Assembly (NCBI RefSeq): GCF_000430045.1
Contig: NZ_KE387023.1
Coordinates: 2,548,598-2,588,828, forward strand
Origin: Calidithermus chliarophilus DSM 9957
GTDB lineage: Bacteria; Deinococcota; Deinococci; Deinococcales; Thermaceae
Reading direction: 5' to 3'
DNA length: 40,231 bases
Shown piece by piece: positions 14,047-39,056 of the stretch. The position numbers and the translations under genes were made by a program. A model generated the notes under the pieces. That model searched no databases, had not been told where the DNA came from, and saw only the letters and a program-made list of their open reading frames with translations. How positions within the stretch are numbered: the first letter of the stretch is position 1; each line of letters opens with the position of its first letter.

Positions 14047-14174
14047 ATACCGGATTCAAAAAGATAATCACCCAAACCAAAGACCTTCAGAGGCTATCTT
14101 TTTGAATCCTAGAGCACTCCCTTCGGTCGGGTCAGTTCGTCCCCATTCGGGAACGAACTGACCGAATCTGGTAT
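14047..14174. repeat. MITE-like two-hairpin dispersed element, copy 2 (short form)
   Basis: A 128-bp element with ends ATACCGGATTC and GAATCTGGTAT, which match as inverted repeats at 10 of 11 positions. The left half is a hairpin (GGATTCAAAAAGATA against TATCTTTTTGAATCC). The right half is a second hairpin (GGTCAGTTCGT against ACGAACTGACC). It lacks the internal segment of copies 1 and 3. Confidence 0.8.
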
Positions 14175-22543: not shown

Positions 22544-23209
22544 ATGGCTGAACAAGTCTCACCCACACGATCGACGCTCCTGGCCAAGCGCGACCAGCGC
22601 CGCCTGGCCCTGCAGGGTGCGGACCTGCTCAAGAACAAGCGCGACGCCCTGATCGGGGAGTTTTTCGCCCTGGTGCAGGACTCGCTCAAGGCCCGCGAGG
22701 CCCTGAACAAGGCGGCCAAGGACGCCTACTTCAGCCTGCTCATCGCCAAGGCCTTCGACACCCCTGAGGCGGTGGAGTCACTCTCCGGCGCTCCGGTGAG
22801 CGTGCACATGGAGGTCGAGAGCCTTTACGGCGTGAAGGTGCCCCGCATCAGCACCCCCGAGGGCAGCGGCGGGCTGGCCTTCAGCCCCATCGGCGTGGGC
22901 TCCAAGACCCTCGAGGCCGCCGGCGCCTTCCGCGCCCTGGCCGAGGCGGTCATCGAGGTCGCCAACACCGAGAACCGCCTGCGCCGTATCGGCGAGGAGA
23001 TCAAGAAGACCAACCGGCGCGTCAACGCGCTCGAGCAGATCTCCATCCCCGAGATCAACGAGCAGATCAAGTTCATCTCCGACACCCTCGACCAGCGCGC
23101 GCTGGAGGAAGTGACCACCCTCAAGCGCATCAAGGCCAAGCTCGAGCAGCGCGAAGCCCAGGAACAGGGCATCATCTCGGCGCGGCTCGAGAAGGGTGCG
23201 GGTCTGTAG
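22544..23209 (+). CDS. atpD: V/A-type ATPase subunit D (central rotor shaft)
   Basis: A 221-residue coiled-coil shaft protein. VSPTRSTLLAKRDQRRLALQ and LLKNKRDALIGEFF begin it, and NTENRLRRIGEEIKKTNRRV with NALEQISIPEINEQIKFI end the conserved part, as in Thermus. I start at the ATG at 22544, which has GGAGG five bases upstream; the frame starts earlier at 22523 but that segment is spacer. The last 27 bases (23183-23209) are repeated at 25555-25581, where only the non-coding copy remains. It is the last atp gene and is followed by a terminator. Confidence 0.92.
   Translation: MAEQVSPTRSTLLAKRDQRRLALQGADLLKNKRDALIGEFFALVQDSLKAREALNKAAKDAYFSLLIAKAFDTPEAVESLSGAPVSVHMEVESLYGVKVPRISTPEGSGGLAFSPIGVGSKTLEAAGAFRALAEAVIEVANTENRLRRIGEEIKKTNRRVNALEQISIPEINEQIKFISDTLDQRALEEVTTLKRIKAKLEQREAQEQGIISARLEKGAGL
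23183..23209. repeat. Left direct repeat (attachment-like) at the atpD 3' end
   Basis: 27 bp ending in the atpD stop codon. The same sequence with one change (T to C) recurs at 25555-25581 on the far side of the A+T-richer insert. The bases flanking the two copies differ, so the repeat boundaries are sharp. Confidence 0.85.
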
Positions 23210-23226
23210 CTGTCCTAAGTTATCCG

Positions 23227-23253
23227 AATCACCCCAAAAGGGGTGATTTTTCT
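23227..23253 (+). terminator. Rho-independent terminator after atpD
   Basis: Perfect 9-bp stem AATCACCCC / GGGGTGATT with loop AAAA, followed by TTCTT after the stem's own T-rich end. It lies 17 bases after the atpD stop, at the left end of the inserted segment. Confidence 0.8.
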
Positions 23254-23281
23254 TGATTGCTCTTTGGCATTCCTGTACTAT
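23253..23281 (+). promoter_or_regulatory. Promoter of the inserted lipoprotein gene
   Basis: TTGATT (23253-23258) and TACTAT (23276-23281) with an ideal 17-bp spacer, directly after the terminator. The gene therefore has its own transcription unit. Confidence 0.65.
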
Positions 23282-23315
23282 CAGGCACAAGTGAGAGCTA
23301 TCTGAAGTGATCAGT

Positions 23316-25544
23316 ATGACTAACTTGATGCTGCGTTTCTTCCTAGGTCTGTTTATAGGGGTCACTCTCAACGCTTGCAATCCCGGTTCTGGCTCCGATT
23401 CTGATTCCCCTCAAATCAGCTTTGAGGTGAGGATTGGCAGTGTGAACTTCGATCCGGCCGTATTCGGTACCTCGAAAAACTCCTACTCTCAAATGAAGGA
23501 GAAATGGGAGGGGGTCGTCAGAAGGCTCAAGGGTCACAAAGAATCATTGTTTATAGCTGAAACAACAGAGAAGGTAAACTTCTGGGTTTCTTTTCTTGTT
23601 GATGGGAAACCCCCGGCCTCCGATGTAGAGATCATGGTTTCTGGTTCTTCAGGCGAATATGACAGCCCGTTGGTTTACGCCGAGAACCTCGCGTGGGATG
23701 ATTTTATTCTGTTGCCAAGCCTGGGTTTGGGGGAATATCAGCTCGAGGCGAAGTACAGAGGAGTATCGAAGAAAGCGACTGTTAGCCTCACTGACGCCTC
23801 GCTAGGCATACCACAAAACCTCTCAGCTAGAGCAAGCAACAGTGCCTTGAGCGCAATCTGGGACGAAGTACCGGGAGCCGAGTCTTATATTTACCTGATT
23901 TATGACTTGACCGCACAAGAGTTTGTCTACGCTGATGCTGTTATAGATAACCAGGTAGGGTTTAGTTCGGGTAGCCTGAATCTAGATAACGGTAAACGTT
24001 ATGAGCTCTGGCTAATTGCGGCTAGCTGGAATGCTACTGTGTCTAGGGACAGAACAACTGTTCCACCTAAGGTAGCTAACATGTCAGTGACTACAACTCC
24101 GCTTATAGTGGGCCAGCTGCCACTTGAAGGCCCTACTATACCCCCGCCGCTATTAGCAGAACCCGGTGGCAAGGTAACGGGTACGCTTGAACTCAAGAAC
24201 CCCAATAACTCTCCAGTGAGTTACGCTATTAGACCCGCACCCGATGCCAAACAGGTAGCACTTGTGTCTGGAGGATCGGGAGTTGTTCCCCCACTGGGTA
24301 CTTCGAAAGTCGAATTTGAGCTGACTTGCTTATCGAACGAAGGAGACCAGGGTTCATCATTGATATTTCGCCATGCTGGCCAAGATGCTTGGCTGCCTCT
24401 CTATCTGAAATGCTACTTCCCCCCCCAGATCACCTCCTTTAAGGCTAACCGTACTGTTGTCAATGCTGGTGATCCAGCGGTTCTGTCTTGGCAGACCTCT
24501 GGATCGGAACCTCGATACTTAACCCTCACACCGTATAACCCTCCTTATCAGTTGGTGGTGAGCGTAACTGGTCAGAGTGAGATCACCCTCTGGCCAACCT
24601 CAACAACTGAATATAGTTTGACTTTGACTAATCCTAGGGGTAGTGTTACCGAGAAATTGACAATAGATGTCAACCCGCTCAAGGTTACAAAGGTGTGGGA
24701 AAAACCTAATGGCGGATACTTCAGCCAACATCCATTCTCCGCATCGGGTCAGCAACTCGCCATCGTAAAAGACGGGATACTTCAGATCATCGATACGCAA
24801 ACTGGAAATCCGTTAATTGCGCACAATCTGGGTGCCAATACCATATACGACTGGAGCCCAACTGGTGAAGATCTTGTGTACTATAGTGACCAGGATAAGA
24901 AGGTACATGTTATTAATGCGCTTACGGGATTTGAATCAAATAGCTATTTGACAGAAGCAGGAATCGGAGGTATTCATTGGGGATCCAATGGGAAAATACT
25001 GATGTCGACTTATGATAACAGGCTAATTATTTGGAGCCCCAGTGACTCCACTTCCAATACCATAAACCTTCAACTGAATGGCAGCTCTATTCAGGGTGTG
25101 CCTAACTGGAGCCCAGACGCTAGCAAGATCGCCTTGGGTGATGGGCAAAATATAAGAATTCTCGATGGAGCAACAGGATCGGAACTAAAGAAGATATTTG
25201 CTAGTGGGCTCTGGATTTCCTGGAGTCCTGATGGGAAACTCTTGGCAACAAAACATGGTGTGCTAGACGCTGCTACAGGGAATCCGCTAGCCTCTAACTC
25301 TGAAGGCATTAACTCAGACTATGCCGCTTTCCTACCTGACGGTGTGCGGATCTTGGCAGGTAAGTATCCGGATGTACTTGTGTATTCGGCTTATAGCGGG
25401 CAAAACCTATGGAGGGTTCAAGGTAGTGCACGCTATGGTGCAACCGTAGCCATTTCTCCTGACGGAACATTAGCTTTGCTTGGATGGCAGAACGATGGAA
25501 ATGGTACTGTCGAAGCTTATCGCGTTGGTTACAACTCACCCTAG
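23316..25544 (+). CDS. Exported lipoprotein with Ig/FnIII-like domains and a C-terminal beta-propeller
   Basis: A secreted lipoprotein of about 742 residues. The signal peptide ends in the lipobox LNAC (Cys near 21). A region of Ig/fibronectin-III-like modules follows: IPQNLSARASNSALSAIWDE near 165, a segment with two Cys near 340-370 and PPQITSFKANRTVVNAGDPA near 370. The last 270 residues hold repeated units such as YDWSPTGEDLVYYSD, PNWSPDASKIALGDG and ISWSPDGKLLATKHG, typical of WD40/TolB-like propellers. I chose the ATG at 23316; GTG 23307 and ATG 23328 are alternatives, and no strong ribosome-binding site decides. Base composition and codon use differ sharply from the neighbours, which indicates transfer. 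No specific function is known. Confidence 0.8.
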   Translation: MTNLMLRFFLGLFIGVTLNACNPGSGSDSDSPQISFEVRIGSVNFDPAVFGTSKNSYSQMKEKWEGVVRRLKGHKESLFIAETTEKVNFWVSFLVDGKPPASDVEIMVSGSSGEYDSPLVYAENLAWDDFILLPSLGLGEYQLEAKYRGVSKKATVSLTDASLGIPQNLSARASNSALSAIWDEVPGAESYIYLIYDLTAQEFVYADAVIDNQVGFSSGSLNLDNGKRYELWLIAASWNATVSRDRTTVPPKVANMSVTTTPLIVGQLPLEGPTIPPPLLAEPGGKVTGTLELKNPNNSPVSYAIRPAPDAKQVALVSGGSGVVPPLGTSKVEFELTCLSNEGDQGSSLIFRHAGQDAWLPLYLKCYFPPQITSFKANRTVVNAGDPAVLSWQTSGSEPRYLTLTPYNPPYQLVVSVTGQSEITLWPTSTTEYSLTLTNPRGSVTEKLTIDVNPLKVTKVWEKPNGGYFSQHPFSASGQQLAIVKDGILQIIDTQTGNPLIAHNLGANTIYDWSPTGEDLVYYSDQDKKVHVINALTGFESNSYLTEAGIGGIHWGSNGKILMSTYDNRLIIWSPSDSTSNTINLQLNGSSIQGVPNWSPDASKIALGDGQNIRILDGATGSELKKIFASGLWISWSPDGKLLATKHGVLDAATGNPLASNSEGINSDYAAFLPDGVRILAGKYPDVLVYSAYSGQNLWRVQGSARYGATVAISPDGTLALLGWQNDGNGTVEAYRVGYNSP

Positions 25545-25554
25545 AATATTCATT

Positions 25555-25581
25555 CGGCTCGAGAAGGGCGCGGGTCTGTAG
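25555..25581. repeat. Right direct repeat: displaced atpD 3' end
   Basis: Copy of 23183-23209 with 26 of 27 bases identical. It keeps the atpD stop codon but has no open gene in front of it. It is followed directly by GC-rich DNA and a strong terminator, so this looks like the original downstream border of the atp operon. Confidence 0.85.
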
Positions 25582-25597
25582 GCCGGAGCAGACGCGA

Positions 25598-25623
25598 AGC
25601 CCCGCACCTGCGGGGCTTTTTTT
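25598..25623 (+). terminator. Rho-independent terminator (probable ancestral atp operon end)
   Basis: Stem AGCCCCGC / GCGGGGCT with loop ACCT and a run of seven T. It lies 17 bases after the displaced atpD end. It now ends the lipoprotein transcript but its GC-rich stem fits the host genome. Confidence 0.85.
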
Positions 25624-25659: not shown

Positions 25660-25872
25660 ATACTAGATTCAAAAAGATAATCATCCAAACTAAAGACCCC
25701 CGGAGGCTATCTTTTTGAATCCCAGAGCACACCCCTCCCTGGCGGTCGGCGAAGCAAACGTCTCCCTTCCAAGGGGCGGTACCGCCCTCCGCCACGCGGA
25801 TAACTTCGGTCGGCCGCCCCGCCAAGGCGGGGCGGCGTCACCATTCGGTGGCGAACCAACCAAATCTGGCAT
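25660..25872. repeat. MITE-like two-hairpin dispersed element, copy 3 (long form)
   Basis: A 213-bp element. The left end is ATACTAGATTC and the right end AAATCTGGCAT, weakened inverted repeats. The left hairpin is perfect (GATTCAAAAAGATA against TATCTTTTTGAATC). The internal segment (GGCGAAGCAA, CTTCCAAGGGGCGGTA, ACGCGGATAACTTCGG) is shared with copy 1. The right part has its own GCCCCGCC/GGCGGGGC hairpin. No protein is encoded. Confidence 0.8.
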
Positions 25873-25990: not shown

Positions 25991-26476
25991 ATGAGAAAAT
26001 TCGCTGTCCTGGCCCTGTTTGTACTCCTCTTCAGCATGGCTTCGGCCCAACGCAACTGGATCGGGGTATCCTCACCCAGCTTCTTCGGCCTGCCGAGCGG
26101 TACTGGTGCGGGCTTGAGCTTGGTGCCCGGCTTCAGCCTCGGCCTGTCCGGGATTGTGGGCTTCGAGCGCCTGATCGGCGCGCTTGACCTGCGCGCTGCC
26201 GCCTCGCTGAGCATCAGCGGCGGGAGCTTCGGCATGACCCTGGGTGCGGACGTGCTCTACCCCCTCAACGCGACCGGTGACACCGTCTATTTCGGCGGTG
26301 GCCCCTTCCTGTTCCTGGGTGGTGGCAGCGCCGGGTTCGCCCTCCAGGGGGCGGTAGGTTATGAGAGCTTCGTGGCCCGCAACTGGAGCTGGTTTGTCGA
26401 ACTGAACCCGCTCTTCGAGTTCAGCTCCAGCACTTTCGCCCTGACCGGCAAATTCGGCATCAACGTCTACCTGTAA
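25991..26476 (+). CDS. Exported outer-membrane beta-barrel-like protein
   Basis: A protein of 161 residues. The signal peptide MRKFAVLALFVLLFSMASA is followed by QRNW, a likely signal peptidase I site. The rest alternates hydrophobic and small residues with many Gly, Ser and aromatic positions (GIVGFERLIGALDLRAAASL, YFGGGPFLFLGGGSAGFALQ), as in small outer-membrane barrels. It ends KFGINVYL, with an aromatic/hydrophobic terminus as barrel proteins often have. The ATG at 25991 follows GGAGGAAAACAC; the frame is open from 25970 but those residues precede the signal peptide. No family is recognised with confidence. It lies about 200 bases before the CHAT operon on the same strand. Confidence 0.75.
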   Translation: MRKFAVLALFVLLFSMASAQRNWIGVSSPSFFGLPSGTGAGLSLVPGFSLGLSGIVGFERLIGALDLRAAASLSISGGSFGMTLGADVLYPLNATGDTVYFGGGPFLFLGGGSAGFALQGAVGYESFVARNWSWFVELNPLFEFSSSTFALTGKFGINVYL

Positions 26477-26595: not shown

Positions 26596-26679
26596 GTCTC
26601 TTGCTGTCTTCCCCTGCGCCCTTTGGCCGGTCGGCTCGTGCTCGAGGCCGCCGCAGCGGCGGCGGGGAGGCTCGGAACG

Positions 26680-29600
26680 ATGGGAGAAGGGGACTACCAG
26701 GACCTCATACTGCGCGTGGGGCTCGAGCCCCCGGGGCGGCACCGGCTCAGCCTGACCGGGGGCGAGGGCGGGGCCACCGCCGAGGCGGTGGTGGCGGCCC
26801 CGGGCGACGCCGAGCCCTGGCTGCAGCGGGCGCAGCAGGCCCAAAGCCTCGACGACCTGGGCCGCCTGGGGCGGGAACTTTACGGCCTGCTGTTCCCGGC
26901 CGGGCTGGGGGAGCTGTTGCGGCAGCACCTCGAGCGCCTGGGCAGCAGCGGCCGGCTGCGGCTGCAACTGCGCCTGCCGCCGGATTGGGCGGCCCTGCCC
27001 TGGGAGTACGTCTGCCTCGACGGGCCGGACTACGCCGGCGACGCCGGCTTCCTGGCGCTCGACCCCAGGGTCTCGCTGGTGCGGATGAGCCCCCAGCAGG
27101 GCGAACTCGGCACCCTCGAGGAGGCGCTCGAGCACGCCCCGCGCCAGCGCAAGGTGCTGGTGGCCCTGGCCTCGCCCGCCGAGGGGGGCTGGGAGGAGCT
27201 CGACCTCGAGCGCGAGCTCGGCCACATTGAGCGGGGGTTGGCGGAGGTGTGGGGCTACGCCCTCGAGCCCCTGCGCCAGCCCAGCCTCGAGGCGCTCGAG
27301 CGCGAGCTCGAGGCCCCCGCCGACGTGCTGCACTTCGCGGGGCACGGCGATTTCCGCGACGACGCGGGCTACGTGGTGCTGGTGGGCCCCCAGGGCCAGC
27401 CCCAACCGGTGCAGGCCCGCACCCTCGCCCTGACCCTGCGCCACCGCAAGGTCAGGCTCGTGGTGCTCAGCGCCTGCCACAGCGCCCGCCCGGCCCGGCG
27501 CTACCCCTGGGGCGGGGTGGCGGCCGGGCTGGTCGGGGCCGGGGTGCCCGCGGTGGTCGCGATGCAGTCAGTGTTCTCCGACGCCGCGGCCCTGATCTTC
27601 AGCCGGGAGCTCTACGCCGGCCTGGCCGAGGGCCGGGTGCTCGACGAGGCCCTGACCCAGGCCCGGCGGGCCCTGTACCGCGCCCACGCCACCCAGGAGG
27701 GCGTGCGGCCGGGCGAGTGGGGGGTCCCGGTGCTGCACCTGGCCCTCGCCCGCAGCCTGAGGCTCGAGGTCCCCAGCGGGGTGGTCCTGCGCGAGCTGGC
27801 GGCGGGCGAGTACGTGGCCTACGCCCGCGAGCCCGTGGGGGCCGGGGAGGTGGCCGCCCGCTGGCAGGCCCTGCTGCCGCCGAAGGCGCTGCCCTACAAG
27901 CGGCTCTCGCCCTACGGCCTGCGCGACCGCGTGCTCTTCGCCGGGCGGGAACGCGAGGCGGCGGAGTTGCTCGAGCTGCTGCGCCAGCGGCCCGTGGTGC
28001 TGCTGCAGGGCGGCGAGGGCGTGGGCAAGACCTCGCTAGCCGCGGCCGGGATCGCCCCCGTGTTCGTGGACGAGGGCTGGGCGGTGCTCCAGGTGCAGAA
28101 CTACATGGAGAGCCGCCAGGGCCTGCGCGACCTGCTGGCCGAGGCCGCCCGGCAGGCCGGGTTGCCCTTCGAGGGGGAGCAGCCCGCGCAGTGGGCCCAG
28201 TCCTTGCAGGCCTGGGAGCAGAAGGGCCTCCTGGTGATCTTCGACCAGCTCGAGCGCCTGCTGGAGGCGCCGCGGGAGCGCCGCGAGAGCTTCTGGCACG
28301 GGCTGCGGGAGGGGCTGGCGGCGGCGCCGGAGCGGCTGCGGGTGCTGCTGGTGGCCCGCCAGTCGGAGCTCGAGCCCCTGCGCCAGGGGGTGCCCGACGA
28401 ACTGCTGGCCCACGGCTACGCGCTCGAGCCGCTGGAGCTCGAGGCGGCCCGGCAGGCCCTGCGGGCCCCGCTCGAGCTCGAGCCCTTTTCCCGCGTCGCT
28501 CTCGACGGGCGGAGCTTCCAGGAGGCCTTGCTCGAGGACCTCGACGCCCTCAGCCCCGCGGCCCCCGGCCACGTCATGCCCGCCGACTTGCAGGTGGTGG
28601 CCTACCGGCTCTACCAGGCGGCCCTCGGCAGCGAGGACCGGCGCATGGGGGCCGAGCTGTACCGGCAACTCGGCGGGGCCGAGACCATCCGGGCGGGCTT
28701 CGTGGGCCAGATGCTCGAGGAGTACGGCCCCGAGCGCGAGCCGGTCCAGCGGCTGCTGCGCCGCCTGGCCGCCCAGCCGGTGCAGCACTGGCTCGGCCGC
28801 GAGCAATTGCTCGCCGGCGAAGCCGCCGAGGAGCTGCTCGAGTCGCTGATCCGGCGGGCCGTGCTCGCCCAGCGCCGCACCGCCCAGGGCTACGAGTACG
28901 CCTTCGCCAGCCCGGCGGTGCGGCGGGCGGTGCGGCGTTACCTGAGCCGGGTGGCCGGGGAGGGCTTCGACGTGGACGTGCAAGAGACCCTCGAGCGCGT
29001 CTGGGAGGCCTGGCTCAACCAGCCCGACTACCTGCCGGGCCCCCGGCAACTGCGCTACCTGGCCGCCGAGGGGCGCGAGCTCGCCTACACCCCCGAACAG
29101 GCCCTACTGCTGCTGCGCGCCGCGGTCGCCCACGACGAGAACCCGGCCCCCTGGGTGGAGGTGCTGCGCCAGGGGCAGGGCCCGGCCCTGCTCACGGCCC
29201 TCGAGCAGCCCGCCGCCCCCGCCGACCGGCTCGAGCAGGCCCGCAAGGTGCTGCAACTCCCCACCCACTACAGCCGCACCCTGAGCCAGGCGGCGGTGAG
29301 CGAGCGGCGGATGATCGCCCGCTACACCGCGGCCATGGCCCTGCAGGTGCCCTACCCCCAGCAGGCCGTGCTGCTGGGGAGGCTCGAGGAGGCGTTGGAC
29401 GAGCTCAAGGGCTGGTGGCGCCAGCTCTGGCGGCGGGCCGAGCTGCGCGGCCTGCTGGCCGACGCCGACCCCGAGTTCGAGCGGCAGAACGCCAAGCTGC
29501 GCCCCGACGTCCAGCTCGCCATCTGGTACTGGCGCGTCAAGCGCCGCCTCATCCGCGACCGCCGGCCGCTGCTGTGGCTGGTGCTGGGCGGGGCGCTGGG

Positions 29601-30321
29601 CGCGGCCGCGGCTTTGGCCCTGCTGCGGGTGCTCACCGGCTTCCCCAACAACACCCTGCGGCTGGGCGGCATCGTGGGGCTGGTGGGCTACTTCGGGGCC
29701 ATCGTGGGGGCGCTGGGCGTGCTGGGGCTGGCGCTGGGGCGGGTGCTGCAGCTTCAGCCCCTCCTGCCCCGCTCCCCGCCCACCCGCATGCAGGGCTTCT
29801 GGCTGCTGGGGCTGGGGGCGCTGGGCTTCGCGCTCGGCCAGACGGTGGTCAGCGTCTTCAGCGGGCTGCCCATGGAGCGGCTGGGCCAGACCCTGGCCCT
29901 GAGCGGCCTGGCCGGGCTGGGCCTGAGCGTGAGCCTGTGGCCCTTCCTGCCCGGGGCGGGGCCGGGCTGGCGGGCCGGGCTGCTGCGCTGGCTACCGCCC
30001 GTGCTGGCGTTCGTGGCCGCGCAGTGGCTGTACCTGGACGGGCCGGGCGGCCTCGAGCCCTACCCCTGTGGCAACACCTTGGTCCAGGTGCAGACCCCCG
30101 GCACCCAGGCCCTGCCGCTGGTCTTCACCCCCAGCGACGCCTACGTGACCTGGGCCAAGGAGCTCTGCCAGGTGGGGCTCTACGCCCTGCTGCGCTGGCC
30201 TGACGGCCTGTCGCTGCTGGACGCGGCGCTGGTGGGCCTGGCCCTGGCCGCCGGGCTGCACCTGAGCCTGCGCTGGGCCTGGCCCAGGGCCTCGAGGGGC
30301 CGGCCCAGGGAAGGGAGGTAA
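26680..30321 (+). CDS. CHAT protease / STAND NTPase fusion with C-terminal membrane domain
   Basis: A protein of 1213 residues with three parts. The N-terminal CHAT domain (about 60-370) is a caspase-like cysteine protease with H222 in LHFAGHGDF and C266 in LVVLSACHSAR, both intact. A STAND/AAA-like NTPase follows: Walker A GGEGVGKTS (K450) and Walker B LLVIFDQLE (D522), then a helical region. The C-terminal part has about six hydrophobic helices from about 964 on, with a short extracytoplasmic segment near 1115-1170. It thus joins an NTP-switched protease to the inner membrane. The ATG at 26680 has GGGGAGG nine bases upstream; a TTG at 26623 would add 19 residues. It leads a three-gene operon. 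CHAT-STAND proteins occur in defence and cell-death systems; that role is inferred. Confidence 0.85.
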   Translation: MGEGDYQDLILRVGLEPPGRHRLSLTGGEGGATAEAVVAAPGDAEPWLQRAQQAQSLDDLGRLGRELYGLLFPAGLGELLRQHLERLGSSGRLRLQLRLPPDWAALPWEYVCLDGPDYAGDAGFLALDPRVSLVRMSPQQGELGTLEEALEHAPRQRKVLVALASPAEGGWEELDLERELGHIERGLAEVWGYALEPLRQPSLEALERELEAPADVLHFAGHGDFRDDAGYVVLVGPQGQPQPVQARTLALTLRHRKVRLVVLSACHSARPARRYPWGGVAAGLVGAGVPAVVAMQSVFSDAAALIFSRELYAGLAEGRVLDEALTQARRALYRAHATQEGVRPGEWGVPVLHLALARSLRLEVPSGVVLRELAAGEYVAYAREPVGAGEVAARWQALLPPKALPYKRLSPYGLRDRVLFAGREREAAELLELLRQRPVVLLQGGEGVGKTSLAAAGIAPVFVDEGWAVLQVQNYMESRQGLRDLLAEAARQAGLPFEGEQPAQWAQSLQAWEQKGLLVIFDQLERLLEAPRERRESFWHGLREGLAAAPERLRVLLVARQSELEPLRQGVPDELLAHGYALEPLELEAARQALRAPLELEPFSRVALDGRSFQEALLEDLDALSPAAPGHVMPADLQVVAYRLYQAALGSEDRRMGAELYRQLGGAETIRAGFVGQMLEEYGPEREPVQRLLRRLAAQPVQHWLGREQLLAGEAAEELLESLIRRAVLAQRRTAQGYEYAFASPAVRRAVRRYLSRVAGEGFDVDVQETLERVWEAWLNQPDYLPGPRQLRYLAAEGRELAYTPEQALLLLRAAVAHDENPAPWVEVLRQGQGPALLTALEQPAAPADRLEQARKVLQLPTHYSRTLSQAAVSERRMIARYTAAMALQVPYPQQAVLLGRLEEALDELKGWWRQLWRRAELRGLLADADPEFERQNAKLRPDVQLAIWYWRVKRRLIRDRRPLLWLVLGGALGAAAALALLRVLTGFPNNTLRLGGIVGLVGYFGAIVGALGVLGLALGRVLQLQPLLPRSPPTRMQGFWLLGLGALGFALGQTVVSVFSGLPMERLGQTLALSGLAGLGLSVSLWPFLPGAGPGWRAGLLRWLPPVLAFVAAQWLYLDGPGGLEPYPCGNTLVQVQTPGTQALPLVFTPSDAYVTWAKELCQVGLYALLRWPDGLSLLDAALVGLALAAGLHLSLRWAWPRASRGRPREGR

Positions 30322-32053: not shown

Positions 32054-32247
32054 GTGGCCGATGGCCGGGCGCTGGGGCGGGTCGTACGTCGTACGCGAGA
32101 CGCAAAACGCAATACGCAAAACGCAAGACGCAAAACGCGAAACGCCTTGTTCCCCCCTTAGCAAGGGGGGCTGGGGGGGATATTCCTTCCCCGGCGCCGG
32201 GGAGGGGTAAACCACGAGCCACTAGCCTCCCGCTGACGGCTTGCGGC
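32054..32247. repeat. Heptamer-repeat intergenic module B with two GC hairpins
   Basis: Same order as module A: GTGGCCG, ATGGCCG, GGCGCTG and two TCGTACG units lead to ACGCAAA/ACGCAAG units (to 32146). Next come the hairpin CCCCCCTT-agc-AAGGGGGG (32152-32170), a second C/G hairpin, and CACGAGC, CACTAGC, CTCCCGC, TGACGGC and TTGCGGC. It separates the convergent lipoprotein and metallopeptidase genes. Confidence 0.8.
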
Positions 32248-33096: not shown

Positions 33097-33337
33097 CAAA
33101 CGCCAAGCGCTAAACGCCGATAGCCGATGGCCGAACGCGGGTCCTACGTCGTACGCAAAACGCCAAACGCCGAACGCCAAACGCCAAACGCAAAACGCAA
33201 GACGCCGTGTCACCCCCCTTAGCAAGGGGGGCTGGGGGGATACCCCCTCCCCGCGGGCGGGGAGGGACGGGGAGGGGTCACCACGAGCCACGGGCTACTA
33301 GCCTTCCGCTGACGGCTGAAAGCTGATAGCTGACGGC
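33097..33337. repeat. Heptamer-repeat intergenic module C with two GC hairpins
   Basis: 7-bp units from CAAACGC, CAAGCGC and TAAACGC through CGATAGC and CGATGGC to ACGCAAA/ACGCCAA. Next come the hairpin CCCCCCTT-agc-AAGGGGGG (33213-33231), the C/G hairpin, and CACGAGC, CACGGGC, TACTAGC, CTTCCGC, TGACGGC, TGAAAGC, TGATAGC and TGACGGC. The phase is kept before and after the hairpins. Confidence 0.8.
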
Positions 33338-38805: not shown

Positions 38806-39056
38806 TGAACGCTGGGCGCGGGTCGTACTCCTGTGTCGTATGTCCTACGTCGTACGTCGTACGCCAAACGCCAAACGCCGAACGCAAAACGCAAGACGCA
38901 AAACGCAAGACGCAAAACGCAAAACGCCAGACGCAAAACGCCAGACGCAAAACGCCAGACGCAAAACGCAAGACGCAAAACGCAAGACGCAAAACGCAAG
39001 ACGTGTGTCCTACGTCTTCGCTGTACGCCTTGACCCTTGACGAACCACCAGCCACC
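38806..39056. repeat. Heptamer-repeat intergenic module D (longest array)
   Basis: Twenty perfect-length 7-bp units occupy 38861-39000, made of ACGCCAA, ACGCAAA, ACGCAAG and ACGCCAG. GGGTCGT, TGTCGTA, TGTCCTA and two CGTCGTA units precede them in phase. ACGTGTG, TCCTACG, two CTTGAC-type units, AACCACC and AGCCACC follow. The two hairpins of modules A-C are absent here. It lies between two genes whose ends face each other. Confidence 0.85.

Follow-up and report, generated by a model that had tools for sequence, protein, structure and literature searches.

A foreign lipoprotein gene behind atpD of Calidithermus chliarophilus, flanked by two copies of the atpD 3' end

The V-type ATPase operon of Calidithermus chliarophilus DSM 9957 crosses a 40,231-nucleotide stretch of DNA (hereafter, the window) that is part of a 3.08-Mb contig in a genome totalling 4.69 Mb. 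The last gene of the operon, atpD, is followed by an A+T-richer block with a single lipoprotein gene, and the 3' end of atpD recurs at the far side of that block (Table 1). Specifically, the final 27 bases of atpD, up to and including the last base of its stop codon, form a 27-mer, CGGCTCGAGAAGGG[T/C]GCGGGTCTGTAG, that returns with 26 of 27 positions identical at a start-to-start spacing of 2372 bp. The recurrence, including its one mismatch, had been noticed in an earlier reading of the letters alone (the sequence-only reading) and is borne out here. The best further match in the window, on either strand, reaches 18/27, and the whole genome holds the 27-mer at just these two places when up to three mismatches are allowed; a chance origin for a 26/27 repeat flush with the atpD stop codon is therefore excluded.

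Table 1. Features at the atpD end of the window (window coordinates)
Feature	Position	Strand	Basis or remark
atpD, V-type ATPase subunit D, intact	22544..23209	+	PF01813, E=1e-48; protein 93% identical to C. roseus
Left 27-mer copy, attL-like, with T at position 15; probably arrived with the insert	23183..23209	+	
A+T-richer intrinsic terminator in the insert, just 3' of atpD; now probably the atp operon end	23226..23249	+	Terminator scan
Possible weak promoter, TTGATT-17-TACTAT	23254..23282	+	By eye; 8/12 consensus bases, under the scan threshold
Lipoprotein cargo gene (745 aa), with lipobox LNAC and a middle part rich in beta structure; alternative start ATG 23316	23307..25544	+	GC3 0.45
Right 27-mer copy, attR-like; C at position 15, shared with C. 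roseus; ancestral atpD end	25555..25581	+	
GC-rich terminator 3' of the right 27-mer; ancestral atp operon terminator, homologous to C. roseus	25596..25619	+	Terminator scan and comparison
Next ancestral gene	25991..26476	+	C. roseus orthologue directly after atpD and terminator

The stretch between the two copies, 2345 bp in length, has a GC content of 48%, compared with about 66% for the host atp genes, and GC along the window drops from 0.65-0.70 to 0.45-0.51 between the copies. Likewise, GC at third codon positions (GC3) is 0.45 in the lipoprotein gene, far below the 0.92-0.97 of atpA, atpB, and atpD and the 0.92-0.98 of host genes overall. In about 1.64 Mb scanned (chromosome and window, with flanks trimmed by one rule), the block was the longest and among the most A+T-rich. 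It is thus foreign in composition.

The same-genus comparison genome was Calidithermus roseus NBRC 110900, and the Thermaceae set comprised 50 genomes, that of C. chliarophilus included. In C. roseus, atpD ends ...CTCGAGAAGGGCGCGGGCCTGTAG and passes directly into GCGAAGCCCCGC....GCGGGGCTTC, after which lies the orthologue of the window gene ending at 26476. A single 27-mer is joined straight to the GC-rich terminator also present in the window, without an insert, which is the empty site that the sequence-only reading had anticipated. When the two window flanks are joined at the repeat, their alignment to C. roseus runs across the stop codon and continues into the terminator, and no obvious deletion relative to that species is seen. 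This alignment indicates that the right flank (25582 onward), already suspected from its host-type terminator, is the ancestral end of the atp operon, and that the 2372-bp unit was inserted after the window's lineage split from C. roseus. At the mismatch position, C. roseus agrees with the right copy. Parsimoniously read, the right copy would then be the original gene end, since displaced, and the left copy, with which atpD now ends, would have come in as part of the insert; alternatively, the left copy may have mutated later. Taken as a whole, insertion with restoration of the atpD end is well supported.

These comparisons bear directly on the proposal that the lipoprotein gene always stood behind atpD and was lost elsewhere, with the second 27-mer arising as a chance small duplication. 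The existence of distant lipoprotein homologues in two other Deinococcota genomes is in keeping with an old neighbour, but the C. roseus empty site contradicts it. The lipoprotein gene is also missing behind atpD in the Meiothermus and Thermus genomes, several of which have a terminator directly there, and as an ancestral neighbour, the arrangement by which the sequence-only reading stood or fell, it was seen in none of the 49 other Thermaceae genomes. Its composition is unlike that of the adjoining host genes, and a chance repeat has already been excluded, leaving this proposal scarcely credible.

The lipobox of the cargo protein lies at its N-terminus, and searches of Pfam, NCBIfam, and PDB match its C-terminal half mainly to WD40/TolB-like propellers. 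A full-length homologue was found in none of the 49 other Thermaceae genomes. The two distant Deinococcota homologues, at 22-25% identity, have the lipoprotein signal and the N-terminal part in common with it, so the cargo belongs to a rare lipoprotein family of that phylum. Structure prediction from three sequences was unusable, with a mean predicted local distance difference test (pLDDT) score of 44. No further copies of the insert were found in the genome, and no donor of the lipoprotein gene was found in phage or plasmid collections or in Genome Taxonomy Database (GTDB) contigs; the plasmid and phage DNA matches were to the terminator only.

The insert had also been credited with a terminator and a promoter of its own. 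The terminator, like the lipoprotein gene and the size and A+T-richness of the block, was upheld, while a consensus promoter scan of 23210-23306 found no promoter. Transcription of the atp operon is predicted to end now, probably, at the insert's own terminator. The lipoprotein gene lacks a terminator, and its stop codon lies 10 bp short of the right 27-mer, such that its transcript would be expected to stop at the host's former atp terminator. The cargo may be expressed and exposed at the cell surface.

A reasonably probable origin for this arrangement is that a small circular element, or a larger relative since reduced by deletion, integrated by a single exchange within the terminal 27 bp of atpD. 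The incoming DNA would have brought its own version of the atpD 3' end. Through the exchange, this version would have replaced the last bases of atpD, leaving AtpD intact and moving the original end 2372 bp downstream. The recombinase would either have been lost, leaving a remnant like a cis-mobilizable element (CIME), or have acted in trans. From then on, the atp operon would stop at the terminator brought by the insert, leaving its former terminator to the cargo. The features predicted by site-specific or Campbell-type integration are all seen, namely, a repeat at or near a gene end, an intact gene, the apparent incoming copy beside that gene, and the displaced copy at the far side. The polarity of the mismatch, where the right copy has the C. 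roseus base, is likewise what integration with gene-end replacement predicts. A circular intermediate, a recombinase-catalysed exchange, and past mobility are inferred from this pattern, and a site-specific recombinase would be the presumed agent. A bolder version is quite improbable: in Thermaceae, very small one-gene cassettes would form a family that shares the atpD 3' end as its attachment site and is moved by a trans-acting recombinase with its gene outside the cassettes. Each such cassette would carry a terminator, a promoter, a cargo gene, and an attachment site (attP), and would insulate the essential operon while borrowing its old terminator.

The genome has nine matches to tyrosine recombinases and one to a serine recombinase. 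Two other stretches, L061 (9452-15523) and L062 (9908-17634), contain elements of about 6.0 and 7.7 kb with exact 45-bp flanking repeats that can be read as the 3' ends of tRNAs, and a tyrosine recombinase match lies in each element; integrase-bearing integration at tRNA 3' ends therefore does occur in this genome. In 20-kb stretches around the tyrosine recombinase matches, the best attP-like match to the 27-mer was 21/27, no higher than the best value among 40 control stretches (also 21).

Several results weigh against recombinase-mediated integration at atpD. The single lipoprotein open reading frame (ORF) of the insert contains no recombinase domain, and no integrase (as the sequence-only reading had claimed), transposase, relaxase, or phage gene was found within the insert. 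No obvious dyad was seen in the 27-mer. Neither attP nor a longer version of the insert was found in viral contigs, searched with 27-mer patterns, or in phages and plasmids, searched with the 27-mer and its flanks. In 20 relatives, read up to about 19 kb downstream of atpD, there was no second atpD end, and a search of the same 1.64 Mb for further ORFs whose 3' end is repeated beyond an A+T-rich block returned just this locus. The 27-mer contains a CGG codon where C. roseus has CAC, such that the incoming copy would have to stem from very near this lineage. Finally, one-sided illegitimate recombination or capture at a staggered break would leave a similar scar. Of the site-specific integration put forward in the sequence-only reading, the insertion and the restoration of the gene end have stood, while an integrase, an attP, a longer relative, and a second insert have not been found; the further 27-mer copies and recombinase-bearing longer inserts that it looked to did not materialize.

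The remaining hits of the ORF-3'-end scan were dispersed repeats or segmental duplications and were rejected. Elsewhere in the genome, about 400 bp of a comM-like gene are duplicated around 7 kb of lower-GC lipoprotein genes (G000 C3:295162-302841; L103, L104). This duplication was set aside, given a run of N and transposase sequence at the place, and may be an assembly effect.

A second explanation is homology-facilitated illegitimate recombination (HFIR) during natural transformation, a process known from naturally competent bacteria (PMC3240628). Linear DNA bearing atpD with the lipoprotein gene downstream of it would have recombined homologously in atpD, and its other end would have been attached illegitimately to the host atpD, 27 bp short of the gene end; the 27-mer would simply be the leftover host gene end, with no special role. 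HFIR accounts for a one-gene insert without a recombinase, a terminator after the cargo, or terminal repeats, and for a repeat that stops exactly at the atpD end, as two related atpD genes would. The strong natural competence of the family makes HFIR plausible; Thermus thermophilus has powerful means of exchanging DNA in both competence and transjugation (PMC7767461). The insert also resembles HFIR products in being short and foreign, with one-sided homology, in a probably competent lineage (PMC3240628). However, such events are described as an insertion with, usually, a deletion rather than a small duplication (PMC3240628), while here a 27-bp duplication is found and nothing obvious is missing relative to C. 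roseus. The sequence directly to the left of the right junction shows no microhomology, and HFIR would need a donor with host-like, GC-rich atpD codons (26/27, the CGG codon included) followed by a 48% GC gene, of which none was found. Accordingly weighted, HFIR is possible but rather unlikely.

A third explanation is duplication of the target site. If a transposase, or the repair of a staggered break, had captured foreign DNA, then the 27 bp would be host sequence filled in on both sides, yielding two near-identical host copies that include the CGG codon absent from C. roseus. Against this, the insert lacks both the terminal inverted repeats (best terminal match, 12/20) and the transposase that mark a transposon, and 27 bp is long for a target duplication. 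The duplication would also have to end exactly at the stop codon by accident or selection, and the mismatch would require a later mutation in the left copy. Target-site duplication is therefore regarded as improbable, more so than illegitimate recombination of transforming DNA.

Other features of the window were recorded alongside this locus. A palindromic repeat, GATTCAAAAAGATA...TATCTTTTTGAATC, resembling a repetitive extragenic palindrome (REP) or a miniature inverted-repeat transposable element (MITE), lies at 25666-25721 and at 14053-14117. The genome has 69 copies at up to three mismatches, distributed over the large replicons C3 and C7, with a single copy on C5. Relatives of the repeat are found just behind atpD in two Meiothermus genomes. 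In C. roseus, the repeat is absent from this place. Farther downstream, 26623-30321 encodes a protein of 1232 aa that combines CHAT protease and nSTAND1 NTPase domains with a hydrophobic C-terminal part and resembles effector-type STAND proteins of defence or signalling. Finally, short-repeat arrays of the ACGCAAAACGCAAGACGC type lie between genes at 32093-32160, 33145-33205, and 38849-39000, and in other stretches of the genome as well.

The atpD locus is a clean example, with the empty site known from a sister species, of how a foreign gene has come to lie behind an essential energy operon and left it unharmed. If a recombinase acted, a V-type ATPase gene would join the protein-coding attachment sites and provide an integration site in a thermophile; if transformation acted, the locus would be a natural record of illegitimate integration in Thermaceae. 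As a single case without a known partner, it remains an ordinary finding of genome evolution.

With respect to known systems, the sequence-only reading had pointed out that the target was a protein-coding gene and not a tRNA, but such a target is not unusual in itself, since integrative and mobilizable elements (IMEs) are known to target housekeeping protein genes at their 3' ends (PMC5704250). A literature search for V-ATPase atpD as an integration site returned nothing relevant by title or abstract. As with the IMEs, the repeat covers the gene end and the gene is undisrupted (PMC5704250), whereas IMEs bring their own integrase and mobilisation genes and the atpD insert has neither. Within the Thermaceae, ICETh1 of T. 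thermophilus is likewise an integrative element with att repeats at a gene 3' end (PMC7767461); by comparison, the atpD insert is 2.4 kb long, has one gene, and lies at a protein gene. An integron-type gene cassette is not suggested, as no attC-sized segment fits in the 10 bp from the gene stop (25544) to the right repeat (25555), although no attC model search was made. The closest known kind is the integrase-less CIME, a decayed integrative and conjugative element (ICE) or IME, at the 3' end of a housekeeping gene; in Streptococcus salivarius, the sites include rpsI, rpmG, fda, and rplL (PMC7563491). The atpD insert differs from CIMEs in its single cargo gene and in its target, a V-type ATPase subunit D gene in the Deinococcota. 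Moreover, no ICE or IME that shares its attachment site was found, either in tandem or elsewhere. In common with CIMEs, it is a small cargo block without integration or transfer genes, with two direct repeats (and just one in the C. roseus empty site), one of which forms the intact 3' end of a protein gene, AtpD being full length. Its size, too, lies within the 1.2-13 kb of the integrase-less cargo elements at the 3' ends of rpmG, rpsI, fda, or rplL (PMC7563491, PMC5704250).
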